Below are positions 18,075 to 49,692 of a stretch of 64,000 bases of DNA, one piece after another. How positions within the stretch are numbered: the stretch's first letter is position 1; every line of letters starts with the position of its first letter. The stretch spans positions 124,001 through 188,000 of the forward strand of contig CAJXVS010000001.1 of the NCBI GenBank assembly GCA_913061265.1, read 5' to 3'. The position numbers and the translations under genes are program-made. The notes under the pieces are model-generated. The model searched no databases and had not been told where the DNA came from. It saw only the letters and a list, made by a program, of their open reading frames with translations. The stretch comes from an uncultured Halobacteriovorax sp. GTDB lineage: Bacteria; Bdellovibrionota; Bacteriovoracia; Bacteriovoracales; Bacteriovoracaceae.

Positions 18075-18192
18075 GAAGGAATCCCCTTTAATTGTTTTCA
18101 GACTTAGGGAGTATAACAATTTCCACACCCTTTTGAGAATAACGCGTCTCTGAAAATAACCTTGTTAACAGCTCCCCCTCGCGGTGGTAAAA

Positions 18193-26445: not shown

Positions 26446-26867
26446 TAGAGACTTAACTCCACAAGTTCAACTTGTCCTTGAACAAGATCACCTTCTTTAT
26501 GTTTAATTGAGATCACCTTTCCGTCTTTTGATGCCTTTAGAGTATGCTCCATCTTCATGGCCTCCATGATCACTAAAGGGTCGCCCTTTTTAACAAGACT
26601 CCCAACTTCGACTAGAACCTTAAGGATTTTACCAGGCATCGGAGAAACTGATCCGCCTTCATCAGCAGCTTTTCTTTTTCTGCCATTAAGTTTTTCTACG
26701 AAGAAGTCCCGGTTATCTAAAACAAAATGGGCGCCATCGTTCTCCATTCTCAAATCATTATTAGAGAATTTATAAGACTTTCCTTCAAGGATGATTTCTA
26801 TCTCAGAACTCCCAGGGATCAGGTCATATTCATATTGTTCTTTGTTTATTAGTATTTTCTTGGCCAT
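26445..26867 (-). CDS. Biotin carboxyl carrier subunit of methylcrotonyl-CoA carboxylase (split alpha chain)
   Basis: The 140-residue protein ends in a biotinyl domain with the signature EAMKMEHTLKA near residues 102-112, whose Lys is the biotinylation site, and a typical SPMPGKILKVLVEVGSLVKKG entry motif near 75-95. The first ~65 residues are a short beta-rich region, perhaps a remnant of the inter-domain (BT) part that links biotin carboxylase and carrier in normal alpha chains. In most bacteria biotin carboxylase and carrier are one ~660-residue LiuD/MccA protein. Here the carrier is a separate gene, one-base coupled (TAATG) on both sides. Confidence 0.9.
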   Translation of the reverse strand: MAKKILINKEQYEYDLIPGSSEIEIILEGKSYKFSNNDLRMENDGAHFVLDNRDFFVEKLNGRKRKAADEGGSVSPMPGKILKVLVEVGSLVKKGDPLVIMEAMKMEHTLKASKDGKVISIKHKEGDLVQGQVELVELSL

Positions 26868-29139: not shown

Positions 29140-29141
29140 CT

Positions 29142-30767
29142 CTACATCCTAAAGACACCAAACTTGGTGTCTTCTATTCCTGAATTAAGAGAAGCGCTTA
29201 TGGCAAGGCCTAAGATATCTCTTGTTTGAGTTGGGTCTATAATTCCATCATCCCAGAGTCTGGCCGTTGAATAATAGGCAGAACCTTCTTTTTCATACTT
29301 ATCAAGGATTGGTTTTTGAAAGGCGGCGACTTCTTCAATTGATAATTCCTGCTTGCCTTTAACTTTAAGGCCCGCTTGTTTTACTGTTGTAAGAACTCCC
29401 GCTGCCTGCTCCCCGCCCATGACGGAAATCCTAGCATTAGGCCACATCCATAAGAATCTTGGGGAATACGCTCTTCCGCACATGCCATAGTTTCCAGCAC
29501 CGAAAGAGCCTCCGATAATAACGGTAAACTTAGGGACGTTCACAGTTGAGACGGCCGTTACTAATTTGGCTCCATCCTTAGCGATACCGCCAGCTTCATA
29601 TTTCTTTCCAACCATAAAACCGGTTATATTTTGTAAAAAGACTAAAGGGATCTTTCTTTGTCCGCAGAGCTCTACAAAGTGAGCGCCTTTTAAAGAGGAC
29701 TCACTAAAGAGGATTCCATTATTGGCAACAATGCCAACCTGTTGTCCGTGAATCTTGGCAAAGCCACAAACGAGAGTTGTTCCATAGCGTTCCTTGAACT
29801 CATGAAACTTTGATCCATCGACTAAGCGAGCGATAACTTCACGAACATCAAAGGGCGTCTTTGTATCTGCTGGCACAATGCCTAGGAGGTCTTCAGCGGG
29901 ATATTGCGGTTTCTCAACCGGATCTACTTTCTTAAGCCCTTGTAACATACCCGCTGATTTATAATTTAAGTTCTCAACGATATTTCGGCATAAGGCTAAG
30001 GCCTCTTCTTCGTCTTCAGCAAAGTGATCAGCGACTCCTGATTCACTTGTATGAACTCTTGCCCCTCCAAGATCTTCAGCGGTAACCTCTTCACCGGTAG
30101 CGGCCTTAACTAGAGGTGGCCCGCCTAAAAAGATTGTTCCATTTCCTTTTACAATTATACTCTCGTCACTCATGGCAGGAACATAAGCTCCACCAGCTGT
30201 GCAAGAACCAAGAACGACAGCAATCTGAGGAATCCCCTTTGCTGACATTTGTGCTTGATTAAAAAATATTCGTCCAAAATGATCTTTATCGGGAAAGACT
30301 TCATCTTGGCGTGGGAGAAAGGCCCCACCAGAATCAACAAGATAAATACAAGGAAGCTTATTTTCTAGAGCAATCTCTTGAGCGCGAAGATGCTTCTTCA
30401 CTGTCATGGGAAAATAGGTTCCTCCCTTAACGGTGGCGTCATTAGCCACGAATAAACACTCAACGCCGTGAACACGCCCGACTCCTGTAACAACACCAGC
30501 TGAGGGAACTTCACCTTCAGGGTAGAGGTCATTGGCCGCAAGGCTTGAGAGTTCTAAAAAGGGAGAGCCATCATCTAAGATGGATTCAATTCTTTCTCTA
30601 GGAAGAGTTTTACCGCGAGAGCGGTGTCGATCTACTGAAGATTCGCCTCCTCCCTGCTTTGCCATTTCGAGTTTATTCAAGAGTTCACTTCTTAGTGACT
30701 GATGAAAAGATAAGTTTTCTTTAAAGGCTTTAGAGCCTTTTTCAATTTGCGAATTAAGCGCTTCCAC
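29142..30767 (-). CDS. liuB: Methylcrotonyl-CoA carboxylase, carboxyltransferase (beta) subunit
   Basis: The 541-residue carboxyltransferase moves CO2 from biotin to 3-methylcrotonyl-CoA in leucine degradation. It shows the beta-subunit layout: [14 protein letters not shown] near 48-61, [16 protein letters not shown] near 190-205 and, in the second half, [13 protein letters not shown] and [19 protein letters not shown] around 395-430. The latter resembles the LiuB/MccB subgroup rather than propionyl-CoA carboxylase. It is the first gene of the operon liuB-liuC-biotin carboxylase-carrier-HMG-CoA lyase-crotonase. Isovaleryl-CoA dehydrogenase (liuA), often first in such operons, is not in the window. 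Confidence 0.94.
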
Positions 30768-34407: not shown

Positions 34408-36315
34408 ATGAGTATGAACACAATTAAAAATGCTGACGATTACAAACGCTTTTATGACATGAGTTTGAATGATAAAGAGGCCTTCTGGTCGGAAGTCGCC
34501 TCCAATTATAAATGGAATAGGCCCTTTGAAAAGATAACTTCAGGGGACTTTAATAACCTTGATGTAAAATGGTTCGAAGGCGCCAAGTTAAATATTACCG
34601 AGAACTGCATTGATAGGCACCTCGAAAAAAGAGCCAATAAAACCGCCATCATCTATGAGGCGAATAACCCAGATGAAGAATCACTTCATATCACCTATAA
34701 AGAACTTCATTCTAGGGTCTGTAAATTTGCAAATGTCTTAAAAGATAGAGGTGTAAAGAAAGGCGACAGAGTCATCTTTTATATGTCTATGGTCCCAGAT
34801 CTTCTTGTTGGTGTTCTTGCTTCGGCTCGAATCGGAGCGATTCACTCAGTGGTCTTTGGCGGCTTCTCTGCAAATGCTCTAGCGGGAAGAATTCAAGATT
34901 GTGAAGCGACTATTATTGTTACTAACGACGCTGGCTTTAGAGGAGATAAAACAGTTCCTCTTAAGGCCATAACTGATGAGGCGCTTAAAAGCTGCCCTAC
35001 TATCAAAACGGTTCTAGTCTCAAAAAGAGTTGGCGAAGATATTCAAATGATTGAAGGCCGCGATCATTGGCTACAACCAATGCTTGATCAGGCCGATAAT
35101 AACTGTGATCCCGTTTATGTGGACTCAGAGGACCCTCTTTTTATTCTTTATACATCAGGCTCTACAGGTAAACCTAAAGGCCTTCTTCATACTACTGCTG
35201 GCTATATGGTTTGGGCCGGAGAAACTTATAAGAATGTTTTTCAAGTCGGTGAGGACGATGTGTACTGGTGTACCGCAGATATTGGCTGGATAACAGGACA
35301 TAGTTATATTACTTATGGCCCTCTTCTTAATGGTTCTACTCAAGTTATGTTTGAAGGAGTTCCGACTTACCCTGATGCCGGACGCTTTTGGGAGGCCACA
35401 GAAAAGCATAAGGTCACTCATTTCTATACGGCCCCTACAGCTATTCGCGCCCTAGAGGCCCATGGGCTAGATTATGTTAAGAGTCATGACCTCTCTTCAT
35501 TAAAGGTCTTAGGAAGTGTTGGAGAGCCTATCAACGAAGAAGCTTGGGATTGGTATAATAAGAATATTGGAAAAGAAAAATGCCCTATCGTTGATACTTG
35601 GTGGCAAACAGAAACGGGCGGGATCATGATCTCTCCTCTTCCTGGTGTTGGAAAGTTTCTACCAAGCTTTGCTGAATCTCCCCTTCCTGGAGTTGATCCT
35701 ATCTTTGTTGACGCTGAAGGAGTCGAAGTCACTGGTAACCCTGCTGAAGGTAACCTTTGCATCAGATCTCCTTGGCCCGGCATGGCGCGGACTATCTGGG
35801 GCGATCATGAGCGCTACCGCCAAACTTACTTCTCTACCTACCCTGGACTTTATTTTACTGGAGATGGAGCAAAGAGAAATGAGCAAGGTGATTACAGGAT
35901 CACTGGTAGAGTGGATGATGTCATCAATGTTAGTGGCCATAGAATGGGGACAGCGGAAGTTGAAGATGCCCTTAATCAACATGAGGATATTGTTGAGTCG
36001 GCCGTTGTTGGATACCCTCACGATATAAAAGGTCAGGGGATTTACGCCTATGTTATCTGGAATCCACAAAGTAAGAATACTCAGGACCCTAAGCAAATCC
36101 ATAAAGAATTAAATGATATGGTCATCAAGATGATCGGTCCCATTGCAAAGCCAGACAAGGTTCAAGTTGTCTCTGGTCTACCAAAGACTCGTTCAGGAAA
36201 GATCATGAGGAGAATCCTAAGAAAGGTCGCTTCTGGGGATTCATCGAATATGGGAGATATTTCAACTCTTCTTAACCCTGAAGTGGTTGAAGAGATTAAG
36301 AATGGGGCTCTTTAA
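34408..36315 (+). CDS. acsA: Acetyl-CoA synthetase
   Basis: The 635-residue ligase makes acetyl-CoA from acetate, ATP and CoA. The adenylate-forming motifs are complete: LYTSGSTGKPKGLLHTTAGY near residues 248-267, DIGWITGHSYITYGPL near 291-306, DTWWQTETGG near 396-405, and KTRSGKIMRRILRK near 592-605, whose first Lys of the GK pair is the usual acetylation site. The start at 34408 follows AGGAA. Its end overlaps the convergent Nudix/MBL gene by 20 bp. It probably salvages acetate and feeds the same acetyl-CoA pool as the amino-acid pathways nearby. Confidence 0.95.
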   Translation: MSMNTIKNADDYKRFYDMSLNDKEAFWSEVASNYKWNRPFEKITSGDFNNLDVKWFEGAKLNITENCIDRHLEKRANKTAIIYEANNPDEESLHITYKELHSRVCKFANVLKDRGVKKGDRVIFYMSMVPDLLVGVLASARIGAIHSVVFGGFSANALAGRIQDCEATIIVTNDAGFRGDKTVPLKAITDEALKSCPTIKTVLVSKRVGEDIQMIEGRDHWLQPMLDQADNNCDPVYVDSEDPLFILYTSGSTGKPKGLLHTTAGYMVWAGETYKNVFQVGEDDVYWCTADIGWITGHSYITYGPLLNGSTQVMFEGVPTYPDAGRFWEATEKHKVTHFYTAPTAIRALEAHGLDYVKSHDLSSLKVLGSVGEPINEEAWDWYNKNIGKEKCPIVDTWWQTETGGIMISPLPGVGKFLPSFAESPLPGVDPIFVDAEGVEVTGNPAEGNLCIRSPWPGMARTIWGDHERYRQTYFSTYPGLYFTGDGAKRNEQGDYRITGRVDDVINVSGHRMGTAEVEDALNQHEDIVESAVVGYPHDIKGQGIYAYVIWNPQSKNTQDPKQIHKELNDMVIKMIGPIAKPDKVQVVSGLPKTRSGKIMRRILRKVASGDSSNMGDISTLLNPEVVEEIKNGAL

Positions 36316-37624
36316 GAGAGCCTTCTTTTACTAATTTTTCAAGATGCTTTTCAATAGTGGCGACGGCATAGATCTTAAGCCTCGCCTCTAGACCTTCATA
36401 GATCTCTTCAAAGATCTCTTCAGTATTCTTTCCAGAACTAGCGAGCTTTAAGACAAGGGCCTCGCGCTTCTTTCTATGGGCCAGAGTCATCTTAAGTTTA
36501 TGGACTCCCCCAAGAGCAATCCCATGGCTAGGAAAGATGGCCTTTGGCTCAAGAGCGATCACCTTTTCTAAAGAAGAAAAGTACTTTGCCATGTCTCCCT
36601 CATCACCGCCCACAACAACGGTGCCTACTGATTGAAAAAGATCTCCCGCTATTATCCATTCTTTAGATTCAACATAAGGGGCCAATTGCCCTTCGTCATG
36701 CCCAGGAACGGCCATTAAAAGAACGGGTTTTCCCTTCCAGTCCGTTAGGATATCGCCATCACAGGCCTTAAAAACATTATTTCTTTTAAAGTAATCTTGT
36801 CCCCACTTAGCTTCAATCCTAGTTCTTGAGTCAAGGCTTATAAAGATAGGCAGGTTAAGCTCTAGGCCTAGCCTCGGGGCAAATTCATGATGATCAGGAT
36901 GATGATGAGTTAAGAAAATCTTTTTTATCTCTAATGAAGAAATTGAATTCTTTAGTTTTAAGTATTCATCTTCATTTTTTGGGGAAGGATCTATAAGAGT
37001 ATCCCCTATGAGAAAGCAATTTGTTCTATTGGCCGGGGGAAAGGTATGAGATAGTGGAAGAAATTGTTTAATTCCACTTATACTTTCAATCCAAGGAACC
37101 TGCGATTCGGGATTATAGGGAAGCCTAAGCTCTGCCCTCTCATTGCTAAATAAAGAGGCTGCAAAACGTTCAATGATTCTCACTGTGGGAGGAACCGCTA
37201 AATGAAGCCCATCTTCATATTCTTTTAAAAGTTCCGCTCCTTTTTTCCAACTGGCTTCAAAGACCTCTCCCTCATCACAATTAAATTCTATTTTTTCTGT
37301 CAGTTCTACCCAGTAAAAATAAGTTTCAAAACGATAAGGATTAAATTCAGGCGTTACGGCCAAAGCTATCTCTTCAACTCTTTTGATAGGAAGTGACTTT
37401 AGATCTATATTAACTTCTTCTTTAACTTCTCGAATCAAGGCCTGCATCAATTCAGGCGAGAACTTATCTAATTCACTATGCCCTGTAGGCTCTTTTGAAT
37501 CCTCACGGTCTACCTTTCCTCCAGGAAAGGCCAAGTATCCTGGAAAGACAGTTAGGTAATTCTGACGTTTTACGGAAAAAATCTCATCTTCAAAAGTAAA
37601 CACAACCGTGACTGCTTTTCTCAT
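36296..37624 (-). CDS. Fusion of a Nudix hydrolase and a metallo-beta-lactamase-fold hydrolase
   Basis: The N-terminal ~190 residues form a Nudix domain: AFPGGKVDRED near 32-42 and, after a short insertion, ALIREVKEEVNID near 62-74, which complete the GX5EX7REUXEE box. The second half has the metallo-beta-lactamase metal motif THHHPDHHEF near 239-248 and GHDEGQLAPY near 298. A C-terminal helical region, a possible winged helix (KNTEEIFEEIYEGL), resembles LACTB2-type proteins. Nudix domains cleave nucleoside diphosphate-X bonds, and LACTB2-like enzymes can be endoribonucleases or glyoxalase II-like; the combined role is unknown. It overlaps the DUF962 gene by 4 bp. Confidence 0.85.
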   Translation of the reverse strand: MRKAVTVVFTFEDEIFSVKRQNYLTVFPGYLAFPGGKVDREDSKEPTGHSELDKFSPELMQALIREVKEEVNIDLKSLPIKRVEEIALAVTPEFNPYRFETYFYWVELTEKIEFNCDEGEVFEASWKKGAELLKEYEDGLHLAVPPTVRIIERFAASLFSNERAELRLPYNPESQVPWIESISGIKQFLPLSHTFPPANRTNCFLIGDTLIDPSPKNEDEYLKLKNSISSLEIKKIFLTHHHPDHHEFAPRLGLELNLPIFISLDSRTRIEAKWGQDYFKRNNVFKACDGDILTDWKGKPVLLMAVPGHDEGQLAPYVESKEWIIAGDLFQSVGTVVVGGDEGDMAKYFSSLEKVIALEPKAIFPSHGIALGGVHKLKMTLAHRKKREALVLKLASSGKNTEEIFEEIYEGLEARLKIYAVATIEKHLEKLVKEGSLKEPHS

Positions 37625-37951: not shown

Positions 37952-39973
37952 CTAATTGAATTTAATCCATCCATCTTTTAATGAAATATCTATACTCTTG
38001 AATTCTCTAATAGCGGGCCAACCAAGGTTTAAGATTACATCTCGGCTGAAGATAGGGCCTTCAAGGTCTAATTCTTCAAAAGGACCTTTAAAACGAACCC
38101 CACCGCATTTAAGGATATTGTTCTTATAATTCTTTCCAAGGTTCTCAACTTTTATATCCCCTCTCACTTGTGAGCCTGTATCAACTCTTACGATATATCC
38201 TTCAGGGCACTTAAATTCGATGGCGTCATATTCAGACCTAAAGTTAGCTTGTAGATCTAAAGCTCCTTGAGGCTTACTTGTAAAATTTTTAAATTCAATT
38301 CTTTTGGTCTTTGGAGTTAAAGAGAACCCACTTCTATCAAAATTATTAAGCCCGAAGGTTCCGTCTACCCCAATAATTTTGAGATCAGCTAAGACCCATC
38401 TGGTGCTCATAAGCTTATGACTGCCGTGAGCTAGTGGTGTAGTCAGCATGACTTTAGGGGCATTCAAGGTCCTTCCCTCTGCCGTCTTAAGGGTCTTAGA
38501 CTCTAAGACGATCATTGATCTAAGCTCGTTTGAAGAAAGAGCGATTGGTCTTATGACTGAGTCCATAGCACCTAGATCAAGAACAAGTTTTCTTGAATTG
38601 ACATAGATCATAGGGAGATCATTATTTTCAAAGAAACGAATCTTCATTCCCGGACTAAAGACTTCAGGCAGTTTATTCTTCCATACCGTAAAGACACTTC
38701 TTGTTTTTGCTCCAAGCCAGCGGTCTAAAATAAGGCTGGTCTCATCAGTTGGGAAAAGATTTTGGTGTTTAAAGAGTGAGTCATAGACCTCTTGATCTGA
38801 GAGTACTTTGGCCATCTTAGAAGTGAGAACAATAGATTCGTAGTCTTCTCTACTAATGATACCTTGGTTGAATTTCTTTGAGGTCACTCTCGTATCAGGC
38901 CAATAGGAGCAGAGTCCTTTATTTAATTTTAACTGCTCTTTACGCATGACGGCCGCTACCACTAGAGCATGATCTAGTTCACCATTATAAAGGATGACTA
39001 AGTTTTTATCATCACAGACCACGCCTTCTTTGAAGATAGAGTTCTTAATAAAGTAGATCCCCTCTTCTTTGAGATCTTTTTGAAGGACCTCAAGGCTAGT
39101 GTCGATCATCTTTAATATTGTTTTCTTTGAAAACTCTTTTTGAGGTTTCCATTTTTTAGAGAGCTTCTTATAGACATGGAATTCTTTTTGTTTGATTAGT
39201 TCTGCAGACTCAGCAATGAGCCAGTCCTTAGTCCTCCAAGGAAAGTAACTTCTATAAAAGTAGAGGTTCGCAAGAGCTATATCTTTATCGATAACAGAGC
39301 ATTTAAAGGAATCGCATTCTTTATAAAGGAAGTAGTAGATCTCTTTTTCATGAAGCCACCTTGATTGATCTTTAAAATACCCTAAGAACTTTATATAGGG
39401 CTGAAGCCTAGCTCCTATTCTTTGGGCCGCACGGATCTCTTTTTTCTTCTCTAACAAACTGACACGCGTAATATGTTTTTGAAGTTGAACCACCATCTGA
39501 TCTTCTAATTTCTTTCTATTAGAGATTGAGTGTTTTTTCTTATTTTTAGAGAAGTACTGATAAAGGTGAAGAAGTTCATGAATACAATCAATCCTACCTG
39601 TCTCTTGCTTCATAAGAACCAACCTCTCAGGATAATACACCTGAGCTCTCTTGGTTGAGTTCATAAACGTTGAATATTCTTGTTCTTTGATTTGTCTTGG
39701 TTGAACTTCTTGAGAAAGAGTAAAGCCGAATTTCTTCTTAACCGTTTTCTTGCATTGGTTAAAACTCATATTCTTAAGTGAAGTTAATTCAGTCTTACTT
39801 AAAGAAAACCCAGTACAAAACTCTGCTGAACCATCTTTTTTAATCCCTGGTAAACAGTGGACAGCTTTATAGAGGTCCCCCTGCATCTTTCTCTTTAGCT
39901 TTCTTAAACCATTATATTCATCTGCGTAAAGGCTTGAAGTTAGAAATATTAGTAAGAGAATAAGTTGCTTCAT
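37952..39973 (-). CDS. Secreted protein with HExxH zincin-like and retropepsin-like motifs
   Basis: The 673-residue precursor has a signal peptide (cleavage near LYA-DE, residue ~17). HELLH near residue 133, followed about 21 residues later by an acidic LED, matches the gluzincin spacing HExxH-x20-E. Around residue 465, KLVLDLGAMDSVI resembles the retropepsin flap motif (usually DTGA), and about 80 residues later GVDGTFGLNNFD resembles its Gly-rich partner strand. The Thr of DTGA is replaced by Leu, so aspartic protease activity is doubtful. No whole-length family is recognised. It overlaps the ferredoxin oxidoreductase gene by 4 bp (ATGA), although its function seems unrelated. Confidence 0.65.
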   Translation of the reverse strand: MKQLILLLIFLTSSLYADEYNGLRKLKRKMQGDLYKAVHCLPGIKKDGSAEFCTGFSLSKTELTSLKNMSFNQCKKTVKKKFGFTLSQEVQPRQIKEQEYSTFMNSTKRAQVYYPERLVLMKQETGRIDCIHELLHLYQYFSKNKKKHSISNRKKLEDQMVVQLQKHITRVSLLEKKKEIRAAQRIGARLQPYIKFLGYFKDQSRWLHEKEIYYFLYKECDSFKCSVIDKDIALANLYFYRSYFPWRTKDWLIAESAELIKQKEFHVYKKLSKKWKPQKEFSKKTILKMIDTSLEVLQKDLKEEGIYFIKNSIFKEGVVCDDKNLVILYNGELDHALVVAAVMRKEQLKLNKGLCSYWPDTRVTSKKFNQGIISREDYESIVLTSKMAKVLSDQEVYDSLFKHQNLFPTDETSLILDRWLGAKTRSVFTVWKNKLPEVFSPGMKIRFFENNDLPMIYVNSRKLVLDLGAMDSVIRPIALSSNELRSMIVLESKTLKTAEGRTLNAPKVMLTTPLAHGSHKLMSTRWVLADLKIIGVDGTFGLNNFDRSGFSLTPKTKRIEFKNFTSKPQGALDLQANFRSEYDAIEFKCPEGYIVRVDTGSQVRGDIKVENLGKNYKNNILKCGGVRFKGPFEELDLEGPIFSRDVILNLGWPAIREFKSIDISLKDGWIKFN

Positions 39974-42900
39974 GAGAGAATTTCTCCAAAAACCTTTTCA
40001 AATTGCTCATAACGAACTTCGCGGTAACCCTTAATATTTTCAACTTCAACTAAACGTCTTCTAAGCTCATCCCCTTTTAACGAAGGAATAGAGTTAAGAA
40101 GCTCATGCTTAATCTTTGAAGCAATAAACCTTTCTTTTTTATGCCATGCCGGAAGGATCAACCTAAAGATCCTCATATGCCTCATCAATTTAAGCATCCA
40201 CTCTTTTGGGTTAATATCAAATTCGATATCGAAGCCTAAGATGTCAAAATGTGGTCTATTGATATGTTCTGTCTTAAAGCTTGAGCCTAATTTTAGATAG
40301 AGTTCACTTTCTCTATGCTTCATAAGAGGACTAATCATCTGATGGGCCACAAAGACTTCATCTTTAATAAAATAAGTACGGGCCAAGGTACGTAAGGCGC
40401 GTAAGACTAGTTTATCGTCTTTATAAAGACTATTTAAACTACCAGCTTCTTTCATAAAGCTCTCAAGGTGAGCTCCTCTGTCATAGAGAAGAATATCGTG
40501 AAGATATTTTGCCAGATGAAAATTTGAAACCTTTGGAAAATACTTCTTTAGAGTCTCTAAGTTTCTATCAAAGATACCAAGGATGACCTTAGTTGATTGC
40601 CAAGGCATGAAGCTCTCTTTCAAGCTATCTCTTATAACCTTAGAAGTCGCCTTACCCTTAATCTTTGAAACGGATTCTGAATCTCTTAAATGATACTGCT
40701 CTCTTCCTAGTTCAAAGGCCTCCAGATTATTCTGAAGTTCTTCTGGTCTCATGGTTCTTTTAAAGGCGCCAATCAGATCAGTATGAGAAAAAGGAAGTTT
40801 CCCTGATTGATAAGCCGCTCCTAAGATCATGGCAGAAGCGTAAACAGCTTTACCAAATCTCTCTTGGCATTTTCCTTTTAGGTTTCCTAGAAAGAGCCTT
40901 TCGCCTAATTTATCTTTTAAACTAGTTCTTAAATTTGCTTCAGTTATTGGATCTTCCTCTAAGGCTTTATCAAGAATGATTGATAATGGGGTTTGAAAGC
41001 TCTTGTCAAAGATTGCAATCCCTTTAGGTCCTAAGAAGTTGATATGACCAGAGCCGTCAAGAAGATCTGGAGAGACTAATAAGTCAGCACTACCAAGAGG
41101 TGTTACCGCTCCGTAGCTAGACCCTTTTTTAAAGACACAAAGATGACCTGTTACATTTCCATTTCTTTGGGCCAGTCCTTTTTGATCGACGAACTTAAAG
41201 TCGAGGTCATCTCTCCCGCCCATCTCTTTAGCGGCTTCCGCTAAGACTCGGCTAATTGTAGTCACACCAGAGCCACCAACTCCCGTGACGACTACCCGCC
41301 AACTTTTGAGACCCTCAAAACTTAAGGCATTCGTTGGCTCAGGAATATTAGAATTTATCTCGGTTTTATTACCAAGATATAGACTTGGGTGGTACTTAAA
41401 GACAGAGACTTTTTCAAAACTTGGGCAAACTTTAATCTTAGTACAATAACTATCGGCAACACAGATCTGTGGATCAATAGAGATCTTAGGTCCATAAGCA
41501 TCTTCAGTCTGAGTCAGCCCTGGACAACCAGTCATATCAACACAAACCCTACAATCTTCACAGGCCTCCGTATTAACTTGAAAAAATTCTTGAACGGCCA
41601 CTGTCTCGTTCTTGGAGAAAACCTTTCTCTCAACAGACTTTCTCTTGCCATGAAAAGTCAGTCCGCATTCTTTATTGGAAACAATAACTTTTACGCCAGG
41701 CTTTCTGACAACTTCATTTAGAGTATTCTTGTAAAAGTAACGATCACTTGGATTGACTTCAAGGCAAGTTTCAACACCTAAGTTCTTAGCAAGACCAAGC
41801 ATATCTTGCTCTGGTCTTTTTCTTCCATCAACACTCATTCCAGTTGATGGAGTGAACTGATGACCAGTCATGGCCGTATTATCATTATCTAATAAGATAT
41901 AAGTTATATTATGACCGCATTGAACAGAGTTACTAATATCAGTGAGTCCTGAATGAAAGAAGGTTGAATCTCCCATCAGGACAACACTAGGATTAGTAGT
42001 AAACATATCCATCCCTGCCCCAAGAGCGCCACCTTGCCCCATAGCGGAGAGGTTATGCATTTCTTTGAAGGGTTCTAGGAAACTCAATGAATAACAACCA
42101 ACATCACCATGACTGATAAGTTGAATGCCTTCTTTATCTAAGGTCTTTCTTAAATCTTTTAATAAACTTAAGGTTTCTCTATGAGGACAACCAGGACAAA
42201 AGGTCGGAAGTCTTTTAGGGAGATTTTCTCCTAGTGGATCAAAGTGATATCCCACTTCTCCACAGGCGCCACTACCAAGTTCACTTGAAAAATCAAGAAG
42301 GCTCTGACGGATGAGTTCGTAATTAAGACCACCATGAGAGACAAAGCCCGTTTTCCCACTAGGAAGAGACTTGCCATAGATCTTGAAATCTAACTGATGC
42401 TTTTCTTTTAAAGCTATTAGTTCTGCTTCAAGAAACCCACGTTTTTCTTCAACAACAATAACTGTTTCTCTTTTCTTAAGCCAAGGAACCAAGAGTTCGT
42501 CGACTAAGGGAAAAGAGCCCGCAGCTTTATAGACACTATAACTATTTAAGACTTCTCCTTCTTCTAAAACCTGTTTTAAGGTTTCAAAGATAGCACCCGT
42601 TGATAAGAGCCCTACTTTTGAGGAAGGCTCTCCGAGTTCTTGATCAAGAGCTAGCTTTGCTAAGACTCCCTGAACTCTTGGAAACCTTGTCTGAGTCATA
42701 GTTACATCGGCCTTTAATGAATTAGGCGGCACCATAACATTCTTAGTCAGATCAAAAGTTCTAGGGTCTATATGCGGTAGAGATTGATCAACAGGCTTTT
42801 CAGCGCCAATCTCAACACGTCCTCCTCCTTCGGCCATAAAGGTAGTGAGTAGAAGACCATGATAAACACTGGTTCTTTTACTAGCGTGAAGAGCATGCTC

Positions 42901-43380
42901 AACCCAATCCTTTAACTCTTGTGGAGTCGATGGTTCAAAGAAGGGAATATGAAGATGTTTAAAAAGGTAACGAGAATCTGCTGGTGTTGAAGTTGAAATA
43001 GACCAAGGGTCATCACCTACGACGATGACAATGCCAGGAAAGATCTCTTCTCCAGTATCAGGGTCAATCTTTGATCCACCAGGATTAGCAAAGTTTCCTA
43101 CGCTTAAAGCGTCAGAAGCTACGTGTAGACCCATTGATTTCATGGCCACCATGCAATCACGCCCAGCTTGCTTTGCCCCAGAGGCCATAGCAGCAGCGTT
43201 TGCTTCAGAATTGGCAATCACAACTTTGATGCCTTTCTTTTCTAATTCGGCCCTTTTTTCAAAGAGGATATTAAAATAGTCGGCCAGTGGTGAACCGGGA
43301 TATCCCGTATAGAGGGAGAAGCCTGCTTCGAGGCCCCCTTGAACGATCAATTCATTTCCACCCATTATTTCAATGGACAA
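39970..43380 (-). CDS. Indolepyruvate-type 2-oxoacid:ferredoxin oxidoreductase, single fused chain
   Basis: This 1136-residue chain fuses all parts of the enzyme that oxidatively decarboxylates aryl pyruvates to aryl-acetyl-CoA with ferredoxin reduction. The N-terminal domain begins GGNELIVQGGLEAGFSLYTG. The thiamine-diphosphate region has HGDVGCYSL and GDSTFFHSG (near 425-475). Cysteines CEDCRVC, CPGL, CVADSYC and CP (near 605-655) hold iron-sulfur clusters. The gamma domain has VVTGVGGSGVTTISRV (near 690), and a C-terminal ~200-residue region fits DUF6537. The start is TTG 43380 with AGGAG six bases upstream. It faces the HPPD-paa operon, so phenylpyruvate and 4-hydroxyphenylpyruvate are the likely substrates. 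Confidence 0.93.
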   Translation of the reverse strand: MSIEIMGGNELIVQGGLEAGFSLYTGYPGSPLADYFNILFEKRAELEKKGIKVVIANSEANAAAMASGAKQAGRDCMVAMKSMGLHVASDALSVGNFANPGGSKIDPDTGEEIFPGIVIVVGDDPWSISTSTPADSRYLFKHLHIPFFEPSTPQELKDWVEHALHASKRTSVYHGLLLTTFMAEGGGRVEIGAEKPVDQSLPHIDPRTFDLTKNVMVPPNSLKADVTMTQTRFPRVQGVLAKLALDQELGEPSSKVGLLSTGAIFETLKQVLEEGEVLNSYSVYKAAGSFPLVDELLVPWLKKRETVIVVEEKRGFLEAELIALKEKHQLDFKIYGKSLPSGKTGFVSHGGLNYELIRQSLLDFSSELGSGACGEVGYHFDPLGENLPKRLPTFCPGCPHRETLSLLKDLRKTLDKEGIQLISHGDVGCYSLSFLEPFKEMHNLSAMGQGGALGAGMDMFTTNPSVVLMGDSTFFHSGLTDISNSVQCGHNITYILLDNDNTAMTGHQFTPSTGMSVDGRKRPEQDMLGLAKNLGVETCLEVNPSDRYFYKNTLNEVVRKPGVKVIVSNKECGLTFHGKRKSVERKVFSKNETVAVQEFFQVNTEACEDCRVCVDMTGCPGLTQTEDAYGPKISIDPQICVADSYCTKIKVCPSFEKVSVFKYHPSLYLGNKTEINSNIPEPTNALSFEGLKSWRVVVTGVGGSGVTTISRVLAEAAKEMGGRDDLDFKFVDQKGLAQRNGNVTGHLCVFKKGSSYGAVTPLGSADLLVSPDLLDGSGHINFLGPKGIAIFDKSFQTPLSIILDKALEEDPITEANLRTSLKDKLGERLFLGNLKGKCQERFGKAVYASAMILGAAYQSGKLPFSHTDLIGAFKRTMRPEELQNNLEAFELGREQYHLRDSESVSKIKGKATSKVIRDSLKESFMPWQSTKVILGIFDRNLETLKKYFPKVSNFHLAKYLHDILLYDRGAHLESFMKEAGSLNSLYKDDKLVLRALRTLARTYFIKDEVFVAHQMISPLMKHRESELYLKLGSSFKTEHINRPHFDILGFDIEFDINPKEWMLKLMRHMRIFRLILPAWHKKERFIASKIKHELLNSIPSLKGDELRRRLVEVENIKGYREVRYEQFEKVFGEILS

Positions 43381-43564
43381 GACTTACTCCTGATTTTAAT
43401 CACTAATTTCAAGAGCATATCGCAGAATACATCATTTTAGTAAGCTATTCTTAGCACTCTAGCTTGCCGCACAAAAATCCCTTAGTCTTGTCCCTTGATT
43501 GGTAAAGAAAACTAGTACAGAATACGGAAATTAATAGAAAATCCCTCTTTATAGAAGGTTGAAT

Positions 43565-44650
43565 ATGACAAGAAGCATTAATGAGGGGAACCCTCTCGGT
43601 ATTTTGGCCATTGATCACTTAGAGTTCACTTGTGATTCTCTTTCAAGCCCTACAAAAGAATTGTTTTATAAACTTGGTTTTCAAAAAACATTTGAAAACC
43701 TTGAATTAAAAACAGAGCTCTTTAGCCAAGGCCAATGCCGTTTTCTTTTAAACGCTAGTACTGATGAGAAATCTTGGAGCCGAACTTATTTTAATAACCA
43801 TGGTGAAGGCGTTAGTAAGATTTCTTTTTTAGTTGAAGATTGTGAGCATGCTTTAAAGACCGCCGCTGAACGAGGCGCAGAACTGGTCAACGCTCTTGAA
43901 AAAGTTGAATGCAAGGATGGAGTCTTTATCACTGGAACCATAAAAGGCTTTGGTGATGTCTTGAACGAATTCGTCGAGAGACCTAAACCTTTCTTTAGAC
44001 CTAACTATACAAAACTTGAAACAGACCCTGAAGGTAAGCCTCTAAAGCAAAGATGCGCCCGAATTGACCACTTAACCAATAATGTTCCTCACGGGGAAAT
44101 GGAAAAATGGGTTAAGTTCTACGAAGATATTTATGGCTTTAAAGTAACAAGATACTTTGACATTAAAGGCGCTAAGACTGGCCTTGATTCAAAGGTTGTT
44201 CAACTGCCTAAAGGGGAAGTCATCATTCCTATCAACGAGCCAGATGTTCCTGATGGAAAGTCTCAGATTCAAGAATTCCTAGACCGTCATAAAGGAGCTG
44301 GGGTTCAGCATATTGCTCTTACTTCTGGAGATATTGTTGAGACCATCAGTGAACTTCGAAGCCGAGACATACGCTTCCTCAACACTCCTAGTACTTATTA
44401 CGAAGGAATTGCGGGGCGTGGAATTAAAGTGACTGAAGACCTCTCAGTCCTAGAAGAAAATCAAATATTAGTTGATGGGGATGAAAAAGGTTACCTTCTG
44501 CAGATCTTCTCAGATACTTATGTAGGACCTTTGTTCTTTGAATTCATTCAAAGAAAGAACAACGATGGCTTTGGGGAAGGAAACTTCCAGGCCCTCTTTG
44601 ATTCAATTGAACTAGATCAGATAAAACGAGGATACTTAAAAGATGAGTAA
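43565..44650 (+). CDS. hpd: 4-Hydroxyphenylpyruvate dioxygenase
   Basis: HPPD converts 4-hydroxyphenylpyruvate to homogentisate with Fe(II) and O2. The 361-residue protein has two vicinal-oxygen-chelate halves. Metal ligands are recognisable as His in RIDHLTNNV (near 166), His in GVQHIALTS (near 246) and Glu in FFEFIQRK (near 325), and the C-terminal GFGEGNFQALFDSIE is diagnostic. ATG 43565 is chosen over TTG 43559 because AAGG sits seven bases upstream. Its stop overlaps the paaF start by 8 bp, so a homogentisate enzyme heads a phenylacetate-type operon, an unusual combination. No homogentisate dioxygenase, maleylacetoacetate isomerase or fumarylacetoacetase gene is in the window. Confidence 0.95.
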   Translation: MTRSINEGNPLGILAIDHLEFTCDSLSSPTKELFYKLGFQKTFENLELKTELFSQGQCRFLLNASTDEKSWSRTYFNNHGEGVSKISFLVEDCEHALKTAAERGAELVNALEKVECKDGVFITGTIKGFGDVLNEFVERPKPFFRPNYTKLETDPEGKPLKQRCARIDHLTNNVPHGEMEKWVKFYEDIYGFKVTRYFDIKGAKTGLDSKVVQLPKGEVIIPINEPDVPDGKSQIQEFLDRHKGAGVQHIALTSGDIVETISELRSRDIRFLNTPSTYYEGIAGRGIKVTEDLSVLEENQILVDGDEKGYLLQIFSDTYVGPLFFEFIQRKNNDGFGEGNFQALFDSIELDQIKRGYLKDE

Positions 44651-45422
44651 TATTCTTTGCACTCCTCACTTTCAGGACCATCCCCATATTGCTCTTTTAA
44701 AGATCAATCGTCCTAAGGTTTTAAACGCCATCAATAACGAAGTTCTTCGTGAACTTCGAGATCATCTGCGCCATCTTGATGATGATAAATCTATTAGGGC
44801 CGTCATCTTAACCGGCGACGATAGAGCCTTTGCTGCTGGTGCCGACTTGGCTTCCCTTGCCTCGGCCTCTACAGTGGATCAAATCCTAGATGAGCGCGCC
44901 CGACTTTGGAAAGAGCTAGCTCTTTTTTCAAAGCCCCTTATAGCCGCCGTCAATGGCTTTGCCTTAGGTGGTGGTTGTGAGCTTGCTATGAGCTGTGATT
45001 TTATCATTGCTTCTGATTCGGCCAAGCTTGGGCAACCAGAGATCAATGTTGGTATCATGCCTGGAGCCGGTGGAACTCAGCGTTTTACCAAAGCTCTTGG
45101 TAAGGCCCGGGCCAATTATTACTTAATGACTGGGGAGATGATTGATGCCCAGGAGGCCCTTGATTTTGGCTTAGTCGCTAAAGTTGTTCCTAAAGATACG
45201 CTAATGCAAGAAAGCTTTGAAGCAGCTAAGAAGATAGCGACAAAGGCCCCCGTATCAATGCGCCTTATGAAAGAAGCTGTGAACAAATCATTTGAGATGC
45301 CTCTAAAAGATGGGCTTGATTTTGAAAGAAGAAATTTCTATTTAACCTTCTCAACAAAAGATTCTAAAGAGGGCATCAATGCCTTTTTAGAAAAGAGAAG
45401 CGCGTCATACGAGGGACTTTAA
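44643..45422 (+). CDS. paaF: PaaF-like enoyl-CoA hydratase
   Basis: The 259-residue crotonase resembles PaaF, which hydrates 2,3-dehydroadipyl-CoA in phenylacetate degradation: FAAGADLASLA near 61-71, KPLIAAVNGFALGGGCELA near 98-116 and GQPEINVGIMPGAGGTQRF near 129-147, with the catalytic Glu. The second Glu of classical hydratases is absent at AYYLMTG-type position, as in PaaF itself. It overlaps hpd by 8 bp and abuts paaG without a gap. Confidence 0.87.
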   Translation: MSNILCTPHFQDHPHIALLKINRPKVLNAINNEVLRELRDHLRHLDDDKSIRAVILTGDDRAFAAGADLASLASASTVDQILDERARLWKELALFSKPLIAAVNGFALGGGCELAMSCDFIIASDSAKLGQPEINVGIMPGAGGTQRFTKALGKARANYYLMTGEMIDAQEALDFGLVAKVVPKDTLMQESFEAAKKIATKAPVSMRLMKEAVNKSFEMPLKDGLDFERRNFYLTFSTKDSKEGINAFLEKRSASYEGL

Positions 45423-46202
45423 ATGCCTGATTTATTAATTGAAAAAGAAAATGGCACCTGCACTATTAAATTAAATAGACCGCAGGTTTATAATGCCCTT
45501 AATAGAGAAACAAAACTTGCTCTTATCACTGAGATTAGAAAAGCCTCAAGAGATGAATCTATTGGCTCAATTGTTCTAACGGGAGAAGGAAAAGCATTCT
45601 CTACAGGTCAGGATTTAAATGACCGCACCGTCTCTGGTGCTGATGCTCCTGTTGATCTAGGCTACACTCTTGAAACAGAATGGAACCCTCTTGTTAATGC
45701 TATAAGAGAGTCAGGTAAGATTGTTATCGGCGCCATTAATGGTGTTGTCGCTGGCGCAGGAATCTCGGTCGCTTTAGCTTGTGACTTTATTTATGCAGCT
45801 CCAGGAATCAAGTTTGTCAGTGGCTTCTCTAATATCGGTCTTTGCCCAGACGCTGGATCTAGTTTTATTTTCTCCCGCGCTTTTGGTTATCAAAAGGCCC
45901 TAGAGTTTTTCTTAACCAATAAGCCCCTTCTCTCTGAAGATTTAGAAAAAGCTGGGCTTATCAATTATGTAGGTGATGACTTCCTAGAGAAATCAAATGA
46001 GATGGCTCAAAAGATAAACGCTATGGCCCCCCTTTCAATAACTAATATTAAAAAGAACTTACAATTCTCTCTTGATCAAGACTTTAAAGAGAGTATGAGA
46101 AGAGAGACTTCAACCCAAAGATTCCTTGGGAATAGTCATGATTATAAAGAAGGTCTTAAGGCCTTCTTTGAAAAAAGAAAACCAGAATTTAAAGGACAAT
46201 AA
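45423..46202 (+). CDS. paaG: PaaG-like ring-1,2-epoxyphenylacetyl-CoA isomerase
   Basis: PaaG rearranges epoxyphenylacetyl-CoA to oxepin-CoA and later shifts a double bond in the open chain. The subgroup marks are visible: FSTGQDLNDRTV near 58-69, VDLGYTLETEWNPLV near 77-91, GVVAGAGISVALA near 104-116 and KFVSGFSNIGLCPDAGSSF near 125-143, where the Asp (instead of the hydratase Glu) is typical of PaaG. The start codon directly follows the paaF stop. A good paaA ribosome binding site (AGAAGGAGAT) follows. Confidence 0.9.
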   Translation: MPDLLIEKENGTCTIKLNRPQVYNALNRETKLALITEIRKASRDESIGSIVLTGEGKAFSTGQDLNDRTVSGADAPVDLGYTLETEWNPLVNAIRESGKIVIGAINGVVAGAGISVALACDFIYAAPGIKFVSGFSNIGLCPDAGSSFIFSRAFGYQKALEFFLTNKPLLSEDLEKAGLINYVGDDFLEKSNEMAQKINAMAPLSITNIKKNLQFSLDQDFKESMRRETSTQRFLGNSHDYKEGLKAFFEKRKPEFKGQ

Positions 46203-46219: not shown

Positions 46220-47035
46220 ATGAGTGAAGCAATTGAATACAGCCAAGAAGAACTAACACTTTTTGACGAGATTAAGAACGGAAGACGATTTGAAGCTGAT
46301 GATGAGATGCCGGAGATTTACCGCAAGCCTCTTATGAACCTTTTATGGATGCAAGGAGACAGTGAGTACTCAGGTGCTCTTGGATATATGCCTTGGATTG
46401 AAAAAGCCCCCTCAGTAAGAGAAAAAGTACTTATCGCTCAGATCGTTAAAGATGAGATGAGACACGCCTCTGTTATTTACGGACTTCTAAAAGAGCTTGG
46501 TGAAGATACAGAGACTCATGTTGAGAACTCAGAACTTGGTTATAAGCTTGAAGAAGATGAGGCCAATATTGGTTTCAAGAGAATGAAAGATGATTTTCGT
46601 GTCAATATCTTTTATTACGGAATCAACTACTGGACTGATTTTATCCTTTTTAACTTTCTTATGGATAGAGCTGCCGGACATCAATTAGAAGATACACTTG
46701 ATTCAAGTTACCTTCCTTGGAAAAAAGGAATTGAAGGCATCTATAAAGAAGAAGTTATGCACTTAGCTCACGGAGATAAGTGGGTGCGTATTCTTTCAAA
46801 AGAGCCTAAAGAAAAAGAATTTCTTCAAAAGAGGCTTAACCTTTGGTGGCCAAGAGTGATGAACGTCTTTGGTAAATCAACTGGAAAGTCTAATGAGTTC
46901 TATATGAAGCTTGGTCTTAAAAAGAGAACTAATAAAGAAATTAGAGCTAGCTTCGTTGCTGAGATTGTAGAGCTTTGTGAGGAATGTGGACTTACCCTTC
47001 CTGAGTACAATGAAGCAGAGAATCTAAAGAAGTGA
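46220..47035 (+). CDS. PaaA-like diiron oxygenase subunit without PaaB, PaaC or PaaE beside it
   Basis: The 271-residue protein belongs to the phenylacetyl-CoA epoxidase (PaaA/PaaC) ferritin-like family and is closest to PaaA: MPEIYRKPLMNLL near 31-43, WIEKAPSVREKVL near 61-73, and diiron ligand patterns KDEMRHAS near 81-88 and KEEVMHLAHGD near 178-188, with DSE near 48. The late segment LWWPRVMNVFG near 213-223 also fits PaaA. It is shorter than E. coli PaaA (309 residues). In the known enzyme PaaA carries the active site but needs PaaC for structure and PaaE for electrons. None is encoded here, so either partners are elsewhere or this is a different one-component variant. Confidence 0.88.
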   Translation: MSEAIEYSQEELTLFDEIKNGRRFEADDEMPEIYRKPLMNLLWMQGDSEYSGALGYMPWIEKAPSVREKVLIAQIVKDEMRHASVIYGLLKELGEDTETHVENSELGYKLEEDEANIGFKRMKDDFRVNIFYYGINYWTDFILFNFLMDRAAGHQLEDTLDSSYLPWKKGIEGIYKEEVMHLAHGDKWVRILSKEPKEKEFLQKRLNLWWPRVMNVFGKSTGKSNEFYMKLGLKKRTNKEIRASFVAEIVELCEECGLTLPEYNEAENLKK

Positions 47036-47889
47036 ATCTAAACCTAGTTACGATTATAGGTGCAGGAACCATGGGGCAAGGAATTGCCCAGTGGTTTGCA
47101 CAACAGGGTCTTAAGGTAGAGCTTACGGACGCCAACCATGAAGCTTCACTAGGCGCTATTGAGAAGATCAATAGCTCTTGGAGTAAGCTTTGTGAAAAAG
47201 GAAAGTTCGACTCTGCCCAAGTGGCCAGTTTTATTGAAAATATTAAGGCCACAAAGATTGATTCTTTAAACAAAGACTCAGACCTTGTGGTAGAGGCCAT
47301 TATTGAAAACCTTGAGATTAAGCATAAGGTTTTTAAAAATATTGATGAAGTTATGAATGATAAGACAATCATCGCTTCAAATACTTCTAGTATTCCCATC
47401 ACTGATTTATCTAGTTGTCTAAGTGAGAAAAGAAAGGCGAAGTTCTTAGGGCTTCACTTTTTTAATCCTGCCACTATCATGAAGTTAGTTGAAGTCATCA
47501 AAGGTGAATCGACTGATCAAGACATTTGTGATGACCTTGAAAGATGGTTCACTGATCGTGGGAAAAAACCCGCCCAGTGTAAAGACTCACCAGGATTTAT
47601 CGTCAATAGAGTCGCTCGTAATTTTTATGGAGAACCTCTTCGTATTGCTGAAGAAGGACATGAGTACTCTGAGATCGATAAAGTCTTAAGAGAAGTTGGG
47701 GGCTTTCGTATGGGCCCCTTTGAATTGATGGATCTTATCGGAATTGACATCAACTATGATGTTACCTGTAGTGTCTGGAATGCCTTTGATCAGAACCCTC
47801 GTTTTGCTCCTCATAAGATACAAAAAGAAAAAGTTGAGAGTAAACACTTTGGAAGAAAGTCTTCTAAAGGATTCTTTGATTATGAATAG
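47032..47889 (+). CDS. paaH: 3-Hydroxyadipyl-CoA dehydrogenase PaaH, N-terminal part (split gene)
   Basis: The 285-residue protein starts at GTG 47032, overlapping the paaA stop (GTGA). It holds the Rossmann domain (IGAGTMGQGIAQWFAQQG near 8-25), the catalytic HFFNP near 143-147, and the first 3HCDH C-terminal domain (FIVNRVARNFYGEPLRIAEE near 186-205, GPFELMDLIGID). This is a complete minimal short-type dehydrogenase. In PaaH proteins (E. coli 475 residues) a second 3HCDH domain follows in the same chain; here it is a separate overlapping gene. It should oxidise 3-hydroxyadipyl-CoA with NAD+. Confidence 0.92.
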   Translation: MNLNLVTIIGAGTMGQGIAQWFAQQGLKVELTDANHEASLGAIEKINSSWSKLCEKGKFDSAQVASFIENIKATKIDSLNKDSDLVVEAIIENLEIKHKVFKNIDEVMNDKTIIASNTSSIPITDLSSCLSEKRKAKFLGLHFFNPATIMKLVEVIKGESTDQDICDDLERWFTDRGKKPAQCKDSPGFIVNRVARNFYGEPLRIAEEGHEYSEIDKVLREVGGFRMGPFELMDLIGIDINYDVTCSVWNAFDQNPRFAPHKIQKEKVESKHFGRKSSKGFFDYE

Positions 47890-48499
47890 AGTCATCTATG
47901 CCACAGAAAATCATCCCCTCTATCTAAGCCTCTCAAAATTAGAGGGCTTTACTAAAGAGGTGCCTAGAAACTCTGAAGCACTCTTATTTGATTTCTCTGC
48001 CAGTCATACTGAAGCTAAGTTAGAATTATTTTCAAGTTATAAAGGCCCTATCATAACGGATCTTTCTTTAAATAATGGGGATCAATTAATAAATGACTTC
48101 CCTCATGTTAAAGCTGCCATAGCTACCGTCTTTCCTTCTCCTAAAAAGACTTATGAGGTTTATCTTAAAGACTCATCAGTTTTAGAGGATCTAGAATCAC
48201 TTTTTTATAAATTAGAGATTAAGGCTTTGCAGGTTAGTACCCCAGGGATTGGATTTATCTTTCCAAGAACCTTAGTTCAAATAATTAACGAGGCCTGGTT
48301 TGCTCTAGAAGATGAGCTTGCTACTGATAAGGCCATCGACACGGCCATGCTCTTTGGAGTTAACTATCCTCTTGGTCCCCTCGCATGGGGAAGAGAAGCA
48401 GGGCTTAGTAATGCTGTTCTTTTACTTGAAGAGCTTTATACATCAACACAAAAAGAGCGTTACCGCCCTTGCCAAAAATTAAAAGAGGTCACCCAATGA
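47882..48499 (+). CDS. PaaH, C-terminal part (split gene)
   Basis: The start is ATG 47882, overlapping the end of the N-terminal part by 8 bp in another frame. The 205-residue protein carries ~110 residues of PaaH linker-like sequence and then the second 3HCDH domain: RTLVQIINEAWFALEDELA near 130-148, AIDTAMLFGVNYPLGPLAWG near 152-171, and the PaaH-specific ending KERYRPCQKL. Together with the previous gene it adds up to 490 residues, near full-length PaaH. Gene fission with coupled translation seems more likely than a sequencing frameshift, because the second part has its own ATG. The paaJ start overlaps its stop (ATGA). Confidence 0.85.
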   Translation: MNRVIYATENHPLYLSLSKLEGFTKEVPRNSEALLFDFSASHTEAKLELFSSYKGPIITDLSLNNGDQLINDFPHVKAAIATVFPSPKKTYEVYLKDSSVLEDLESLFYKLEIKALQVSTPGIGFIFPRTLVQIINEAWFALEDELATDKAIDTAMLFGVNYPLGPLAWGREAGLSNAVLLLEELYTSTQKERYRPCQKLKEVTQ

Positions 48500-49692
48500 A
48501 AAAGTGCTACTTAACATATGCAACAAGAACACCAATCGGAAGAATTGGAGGCGTTCTCGCTCCTGTTAGAGTAGATGATTTAATGGCGCATTTAATAAAA
48601 GACTTCTCTTCAAAGATGGATTTTGACCTGTCCCTGATCGACGATGTCATTGTTGGTTGTGCCAATCAGGCCGGTGAAGATAATAGAAATATAGGAAGGA
48701 TGGCTGCCCTTTTAGGAGGCCTACCTCATTCAGTTCCAGGAACAACTATCAACCGCCTTTGTGGTTCATCTTTAGATGGAGTTATGGGCGCTGTAGGTAG
48801 AATCAGCGCTGGCTTTGGTGAATGCATCTTAGTTGGCGGCGCAGAAAGCATGACTCGTGGGCCTCTTGTTATCTCTAAAGGATCAACTCCTTTTGGACGA
48901 GATGCTAAGATGTACGATACAACTTTTGGTTGGCGTTTTCCTAACCCAAAGATGGAGGCCATGTTTCCTCTTTATGGTATGGGCGAGACAGCTGAAGAAG
49001 TTCAAGAGAAGTTTAAAATATCTAGAGAAGAGCAAGATAAGTTTGCTCTAAACTCTCACATAAAGGCCATCAAGGCTCAAGAATCTGGTGCCTTTGATGC
49101 TGAACTCATCCCTTATAAAGTAGAACTTAGAAAGAAATCATATACTGTTGAAAAAGACGAAGGCCCAAGAGCTGATTCATCTCTAGAAGTACTAGCTAAA
49201 TTAAGACCTGCCTTTAGAAAGGACGGATCAGTTACGGCCGGAAACTCTAGCACGATGAATGATGGGGCGGCCCTTGTTTGCGTTGTATCTGAAGAATTTC
49301 TTAAGACACATAACCTAACTCCTCTAGTAGAGATCACCGGTGGAGCTGTTAAAGGGCTTCACCCGAATATAATGGGATTAGGTCCAGTTGAAGCTACCAA
49401 AAGACTCTGTAAAATGTTTGGAAAGAAGACCTCTGACTTTGATGTAGTAGAGCTGAATGAGGCTTTTGCCGTTCAATCACTCGCTTGCATGAAAGACTTA
49501 GAGCTTAACCCTGAGATCGTTAACCGTAATGGCGGTGCTATCGCTCTTGGGCATCCATTAGGTTGCTCTGGCGCCAGGATCTTAACAACCCTCACTCATC
49601 AAATGGTTAAAGATAAGAACTTGAAAGAAGGTCTTGCAACTATGTGTATAGGTGTTGGGCAAGGTGTCGCCCTCTCAGTTAGAAACTGTTAA
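48496..49692 (+). CDS. paaJ: 3-Oxoadipyl-CoA / 3-oxo-5,6-dehydrosuberyl-CoA thiolase
   Basis: PaaJ cleaves the two 3-oxoacyl-CoA intermediates of the phenylacetate pathway, finally yielding succinyl-CoA and acetyl-CoA. ATG 48496 is used (ATGA overlap with the upstream stop); an upstream start would add nine unsupported residues. The 398-residue protein has CANQAGEDNRNIGRMAALL near 54-72, the acylated Cys in TINRLCGSSLDG near 85-96, GGAIALGHPLGCSGAR near 345-360 and CIGVGQG near 384-390. These are close to PaaJ/PcaF thiolases. Its TAA shares TTAA with the convergent DUF1223 gene. Confidence 0.93.
   Translation: MKKCYLTYATRTPIGRIGGVLAPVRVDDLMAHLIKDFSSKMDFDLSLIDDVIVGCANQAGEDNRNIGRMAALLGGLPHSVPGTTINRLCGSSLDGVMGAVGRISAGFGECILVGGAESMTRGPLVISKGSTPFGRDAKMYDTTFGWRFPNPKMEAMFPLYGMGETAEEVQEKFKISREEQDKFALNSHIKAIKAQESGAFDAELIPYKVELRKKSYTVEKDEGPRADSSLEVLAKLRPAFRKDGSVTAGNSSTMNDGAALVCVVSEEFLKTHNLTPLVEITGGAVKGLHPNIMGLGPVEATKRLCKMFGKKTSDFDVVELNEAFAVQSLACMKDLELNPEIVNRNGGAIALGHPLGCSGARILTTLTHQMVKDKNLKEGLATMCIGVGQGVALSVRNC

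Follow-up and report, generated by a model that had tools for sequence, protein, structure and literature searches.

The window, i.e., the whole 64,000-nucleotide stretch of DNA analyzed here, carries an operon in which a gene for a PaaA-type diiron protein is flanked by a paaG-like and a paaH-like gene and has none of the B, C, D and E genes in its vicinity, just as the original prediction had described it (Table 1); the protein is referred to below as the lone PaaA. The order of genes is HPPD-paaF-paaG-lone paaA-paaH (split)-paaJ, spaced successively by -8, 0, +17, -4, -8 and -4 bases (the last two from inferred starts), and a Shine-Dalgarno-like AGAAGGAGAT was found upstream of the lone paaA ORF. 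The best solved relative of the PaaG-like crotonase is E. coli PaaG (4fzw_C, E 2e-45). In the fused oxidoreductase, the IOR_alpha domain scored 315 bits at residues 4-653 and the IOR_beta domain 67 bits at residues 696-893, both below cut-off. This enzyme occurred in 16 of the 21 neighbourhoods compared, the window included, and the two-domain protein with the metallo-beta-lactamase domain in 12 of them. Among the genera examined, the operon order recurs in many, and PaaH is likewise split in related clusters, many of which add a gene for an EthD protein before paaF and one for a 496-residue aldehyde dehydrogenase (ALDH) after paaJ. No further gene was constant in the clusters, the rest of the operon consisting of known enzyme families.

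Table 1. Genes of the lone PaaA locus and the PaaZ gene of the same contig (window coordinates, except PaaZ)
Feature	Position	Strand	Remarks
Two-domain protein with metallo-beta-lactamase domain	36296..37624	-	Adjoins IOR repeatedly; family named from relative in locus L045
Fused indolepyruvate-type ferredoxin oxidoreductase (IOR)	39970..43380	-	1136 aa; divergent from HPPD
4-Hydroxyphenylpyruvate dioxygenase (HPPD)	43559..44650	+	First operon gene; TIGR01263 362.8 bits, cut-off 277
PaaF-like enoyl-CoA hydratase	44643..45422	+	PRK08138, PRK05862 and PaaF models, ~300 bits
PaaG-like crotonase, candidate epoxide-to-oxepin isomerase	45423..46202	+	Best NCBIfam model PaaG, 201 bits, below cut-off
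Lone PaaA-type diiron protein	46220..47035	+	271 aa; ORF exactly at these coordinates; PF05138
PaaH N-terminal half, separate gene (3-hydroxyacyl-CoA dehydrogenase)	47032..47889	+	3HCDH_N and 3HCDH
PaaH C-terminal half, separate gene	47882..48499	+	PRK08268 397-494, TIGR02279 404-493; start inferred at internal ATG, listed open frame from 47744
PaaJ-like 3-oxoadipyl-CoA thiolase	48496..49692	+	PRK09050 497 bits, pcaF 484 bits, both below cut-off; start inferred at ATG, listed open frame from 48469
Full-length PaaZ	C1:55460-57475		915 bits, cut-off 563; 113 kb before lone gene, same contig

That the gene encodes a PaaA homologue with intact diiron ligands was confirmed by its ORF, by the alignment of all six ligands, and by its membership in PF05138 (PaaA_PaaC), for which it scored 139.8 bits against a Pfam gathering cut-off of 28.5. 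The best NCBIfam model was indeed PaaA (TIGR02156), yet the score of 125.2 bits is 155 bits under the equivalog cut-off of 280. Scores for PaaC (TIGR02158; 62.9 bits, cut-off 133) and BoxB (TIGR03225; 31.1 bits, cut-off 499) were also too low for either assignment, and the protein retains all ligands at the positions where PaaC has C/L/Q/A.

The diiron ligands of E. coli PaaA are Glu42, Glu72, His75, Asp126, Glu155 and His158, and its Phe108 orients the phenyl group (PMC4498308). In the joint alignment, these ligands correspond to E49, E79, H82, D149, E178 and H181 of the lone PaaA, and Phe108 to F131. In 70 distinct lone sequences, the first five ligands and F131 (70/70) never vary, and 69 retain H181; the sole exception (L042:9520-10338, minus strand) has Arg for H181 in a bin whose cluster lacks paaF, which may reflect either decay or a sequencing error. 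Two major differences in length were revealed by the alignment. The span from His75 to Asp126, both included, is 67-68 residues in the lone clade versus 52-56 in PaaA, owing to a 16-residue insertion that contains invariant R121, R127, N129 and F131. After His158, the lone clade has ~91 residues versus ~150 in PaaA, i.e., it lacks the C-terminal tail that every partnered PaaA examined possessed. The AlphaFold model (mean pLDDT 83.8) was good except at residues 108-131, the region of the insertion, where pLDDT was below 50. On comparison of the model with solved structures, the VIA Z score was highest for PaaA (26.5), followed by SSO1313 (24.5), PaaC (21.9) and BoxB (21.6), with aldehyde-deformylating oxygenases and BMMs also matching, at lower scores than these four. 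In place of the lysine bridge seen in E. coli PaaA (Lys68/Glu49), the lone type has Ile or Met, and Tyr. This loss was considered as proof of independence from partners and rejected as evidence, since the bridge is also missing in PaaA-type proteins of Thermus and haloarchaea that have PaaC-type partners.

The original prediction had allowed for partners encoded elsewhere in the genome, and so paralogues of PF05138, PaaB and PaaE were searched for in the host assembly (3.97 Mb in 12 contigs, 99.75% complete). The lone paaA was the single PF05138 gene of the whole genome, which leaves no gene for PaaC; no PF06243 match (PaaB), no TIGR02160 match at E<=1e-20 (PaaE), and no PaaK match at E<=1e-40 were found in it. 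PaaK was likewise found in none of the 80 genomes searched. At the sensitivity used, these results rule out partners encoded elsewhere in the host, the finding by which the original prediction would have been refuted, and the same absence was seen in the 67 other genomes with the lone type. What speaks against a PaaA that works without partners is that E. coli PaaA is insoluble alone and needs PaaC for solubility, and that paaA, B, C, D and E are each required in vivo in E. coli (PMC4498308).

Of the 369 genomes of the phylum, PF05138 was detected in 74, comprising 68 with the lone type, five with the canonical type (all of genus g43), and one with a fragment (G109). PaaB was found in 0/68 and PaaE above cut-off in 0/68 of the lone-type genomes, several of which are complete. 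Genus g43, which belongs to the same family, served as positive control: PaaB was recovered in four of its five genomes and PaaE in all five, and the detection of canonical PaaA, B, C and E there documents that the searches are able to find such partners. The occurrence of the same lone gene in 68 genomes also shows that we are not dealing with a PaaA in decay. When named genomes were scanned, 63 loci were returned, 60 of them in the same bacterial group, mostly named Bacteriovoracaceae, Bacteriovorax or Halobacteriovorax; one of the 60 was from a non-MAG record (Bacteriovorax sp. DB6_IX). The remaining three, 46-47% identical, were in bins labelled Bacillota or Actinomycetes, near apparent 2-oxoacid dehydrogenase genes. 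These bins also contain canonical PaaA and PaaC, which makes the lone type a third paralogue there and implies that its substrate may not be phenylacetyl-CoA. Several other PF05138 proteins were encountered. A second, more divergent paralogue, with Thr at the Asp126 ligand, is encoded in genomes G050 and G107 (L049:9589-10371, minus strand; L055:9458-10330, plus strand), in the latter locus directly following a second HPPD gene. An orphan on an Alteromonas plasmid (L139:3932-6287) precedes genes for a radical SAM protein and a MaoC dehydratase, with no PaaB or PaaC nearby, and another, on a plasmid of Bartonella sp. HY328 (L144:3983-4783), has no paa genes annotated around it. Haloarchaeal four-gene sets (L135, L136, L142) encode a PaaA-type protein, an FeS assembly factor, a PaaB-like protein of ~70 residues and a PaaC-type protein; the PaaA-type proteins lack the lysine bridge, have Thermus PaaA as nearest relative, and group with PaaC, not with E. 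coli PaaA.

A phylogeny of PaaA, PaaC and BoxB, as the original prediction had proposed, placed the lone protein in a clade separate from both PaaA and PaaC. The lone type and its Bacillota-type relatives formed one clade (support 99/94, or 99/95 without long orphan branches), while PaaA formed its own (100/99, or 100/100 without these branches), with the lone type outside. Thus, the lone protein should not be filed as PaaA, because its score is below the equivalog cut-off, its genome lacks the PaaA partners, and it does not group with characterized PaaA. When the tree was rooted with BoxB, the lone type fell outside PaaA plus PaaC (91/90, or 82/47 without long branches), and would therefore predate the PaaA/PaaC duplication; however, a sister relationship of lone type and PaaA was not rejected (AU p 0.157), such that the older origin is favoured but not established.

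Among known systems, PaaA of the E. coli PaaABCE complex (TIGR02156; PDB 3pvr/4iit) is the closest in fold, with 26% identity over 245 residues, the same six ligands and Phe108 equivalent, and PaaF/G/H/J-type neighbour genes, but the lone type differs in its clade, in the absence of PaaB, PaaC, PaaE and PaaK from its genome, in having no lysine bridge, in the loss of ~60 residues of C-terminal tail, and in the insertion. The benzoyl-CoA epoxidase BoxB offers a precedent, since it is homologous to PaaA and does without a structural subunit (PMC4498308). Like the lone type, it has no lysine bridge and a longer loop before the aspartate ligand; unlike it, BoxB is a 471-residue family, remote in score, and works with BoxA and BoxC, neither of which was found in the lone paaA cluster. 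SSO1313 of Sulfolobus solfataricus (PDB 4mud) is also a short PF05138 protein with six ligands and no C-terminal tail, but shares only 22-23% identity, has no insertion, and has Ser aligned at the Phe108 position; in a control search, Sulfolobus acidocaldarius, another species of its genus, had no PaaB match. A sister genus in the same taxonomic family, finally, has a canonical paa cluster (G115, L058) with the same downstream chemistry (PaaJ, PaaZ); there, however, PaaA, PaaB, PaaC, PaaD, PaaI and PaaE are all encoded and arranged as usual, and the PaaA groups with that of E. coli.

The host PaaZ is in no paa cluster, and adjoins genes that resemble those of phosphonate-type ABC transporters. 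Across the 68 lone-type genomes, 42 had only the 496-residue ALDH, 21 only PaaZ, four both and one neither; in other words, 63 had exactly one solution for ring opening (Fisher p 1.4e-12, with relatedness ignored; the counts are not phylogenetically independent). The exchange can be seen even within a genus, as g16 has three genomes with ALDH only and two with PaaZ only. Separate PacL-type ALDHs take the place of PaaZ in known phenylacetate degraders (PMC9007349), and this precedent, together with the alternation, points to an oxepin-CoA pathway downstream of the lone protein. PaaZ was also considered as a strict marker of the lone PaaA and rejected: many lone-type genomes do not have it, most of which are accounted for by the ALDH, and it is found in three genomes that have no PF05138 gene (G001, G037 and G038; loci L146 and L145 belong to the first two, respectively) as well as in the canonical genus g43, and is thus not exclusive to the lone enzyme. 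Similarly, the EthD protein was dismissed as a substitute for PaaB, as PaaZ-type clusters have no EthD; that it is an oxepin-CoA hydrolase is only a guess, its plasmid homologues being in unrelated contexts.

Of the three readings that the original prediction had offered, that of a simplified epoxidase is the best supported, by the conserved clade, the ligands, the operon, and the alternating ring-opening enzymes. Beside what is observed directly, namely the gene content, partner absence, conservation, clade and link to ring-opening enzymes, we infer an activity, a substrate, an oligomeric state and an electron donor: the lone PaaA is probably a stand-alone diiron epoxidase for arylacetyl-CoA, most likely homo-oligomeric, that acts in aromatic amino-acid catabolism. 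Its working mode, whether PaaA-like, or BoxB-like without a structural subunit, is better supported than its substrate. In the proposed route, aromatic amino acids would be transaminated to arylpyruvates, and an arylpyruvate, phenylpyruvate being the best guess, would be converted by IOR to arylacetyl-CoA, CO2 and reduced ferredoxin. Enzymes of the IOR type turn arylpyruvates into arylacetyl-CoA, which makes IOR the presumed natural source of this ester, and PaaK would not be needed. The ring would then be epoxidized by the lone PaaA without PaaB, PaaC and PaaE, the epoxide isomerized to the oxepin by the PaaG-like crotonase, and the oxepin opened and oxidized by PaaZ or, in other genera, by the stand-alone ALDH with a separate hydrolase, whereupon beta-oxidation by PaaF, PaaH and PaaJ would complete the route. 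The 4-hydroxyphenylpyruvate branch would lead to homogentisate through the HPPD of the same operon; HmgA had no match at E<=1e-20 in the host genome, and a short HmgA-like protein is found in many relatives. Phenylalanine hydroxylase was also not found in the host genome, and so phenylalanine cannot pass through tyrosine and HPPD there and needs another route. Genomes of g4, g10, g24 and g36 do have the hydroxylase, and phenylalanine thus has the alternative route through tyrosine and HPPD in them. A more speculative extension, which we consider rather doubtful, is that the lone epoxidase obtains its two electrons from ferredoxin that IOR has reduced in making the substrate, and also split off before the PaaA/PaaC duplication, keeping the ancestral homo-oligomeric state. 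If this is true, just two enzymes, IOR and the lone PaaA, would do the work of PaaK and PaaABCE at matched stoichiometry and would consume no NADPH.

The main competitor of the arylacetyl-CoA epoxidase just described is a stand-alone epoxidase or hydroxylase for some other aromatic CoA ester that IOR would supply, for instance 4-hydroxyphenylacetyl-CoA or indoleacetyl-CoA. In its favour, the operon deals with 4-hydroxyphenylpyruvate, as its HPPD shows, the lone clade is separate from PaaA, three bins have a distant relative alongside canonical PaaA and PaaC, and several lone-PaaA genera have phenylalanine hydroxylase. It is to be noted, however, that the PaaG-, PaaF-, PaaH-, PaaJ- and PaaZ-type genes fit the phenylacetyl-CoA route, that the Phe108 equivalent is kept throughout, and that the host, for want of the hydroxylase, needs another outlet for phenylalanine; on balance, a different ester is a possibility to be kept in mind, but not a likely one. 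Alternatively, the protein could be the catalytic subunit of a complex whose partners are non-homologous or too divergent to be recognized. Such a view would accord with the insolubility of canonical PaaA without PaaC (PMC4498308), and the insertion, rich in invariant residues and modelled with low confidence, is what a partner-binding loop might look like. Nonetheless, the clusters share no other gene throughout, those of the PaaZ type are without the small EthD protein, and the tail of all partnered PaaA proteins examined is gone, which renders hidden partners improbable.

A diiron protein that merely resides near catabolic genes, with a protective, de-epoxidizing or other oxidase role and not that of the pathway monooxygenase, appears quite improbable. 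The ferritin-like diiron fold is admittedly widespread, with aldehyde-deformylating oxygenases and BMMs among the matches of the model, and PaaABCE itself can oxygenate reversibly (PMC4498308); but PaaA, SSO1313, PaaC and BoxB remain the closest solved structures, above the rest, the placement between paaG and paaH is conserved while the oxepin-opening enzymes alternate, and without the lone PaaA the cluster would have no known ring-attacking enzyme. Least credible of all is an ordinary PaaA whose partners are simply missing from the assembly: in 12 contigs, the assembly may be incomplete, but its completeness is 99.75%, the same absence recurs in the 67 other genomes, several of them complete, and the protein lies outside the PaaA clade and far under the PaaA equivalog cut-off.

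For the study of ring epoxidation, a conserved lone PaaA makes the roles of PaaB, PaaC and PaaE directly testable, and with it a single gene would suffice as a small system for epoxidizing the aromatic rings of CoA esters. The lone PaaA would also mean that PaaK is dispensable for a pathway of the phenylacetyl-CoA type. In a 2026 survey covering 6,536 genomes, PaaA and PaaC were reported as kept in every PaaK genome (PMC13186573); being anchored on PaaK, that survey cannot see a variant that has the lone PaaA and no PaaK. In our own literature searches, which covered mainly openly available papers and in one case six name variants, no description of a lone PaaA was found. The proposed route further suggests how bacterial predators, such as this lineage of Bacteriovoracaceae, may exploit aromatic amino acids taken from prey.

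Two other regions of the window may be mentioned. An apparent leucine-degradation cluster on the minus strand (24719-30767), with carboxylase subunits, an HMG-CoA lyase-type protein and enoyl-CoA hydratases, fits a metabolism based on amino acids. A fumarate hydratase-like ORF (16902-18128, minus strand) starts with about ten tandem KKATKKKVA repeats that resemble a histone H1 tail.
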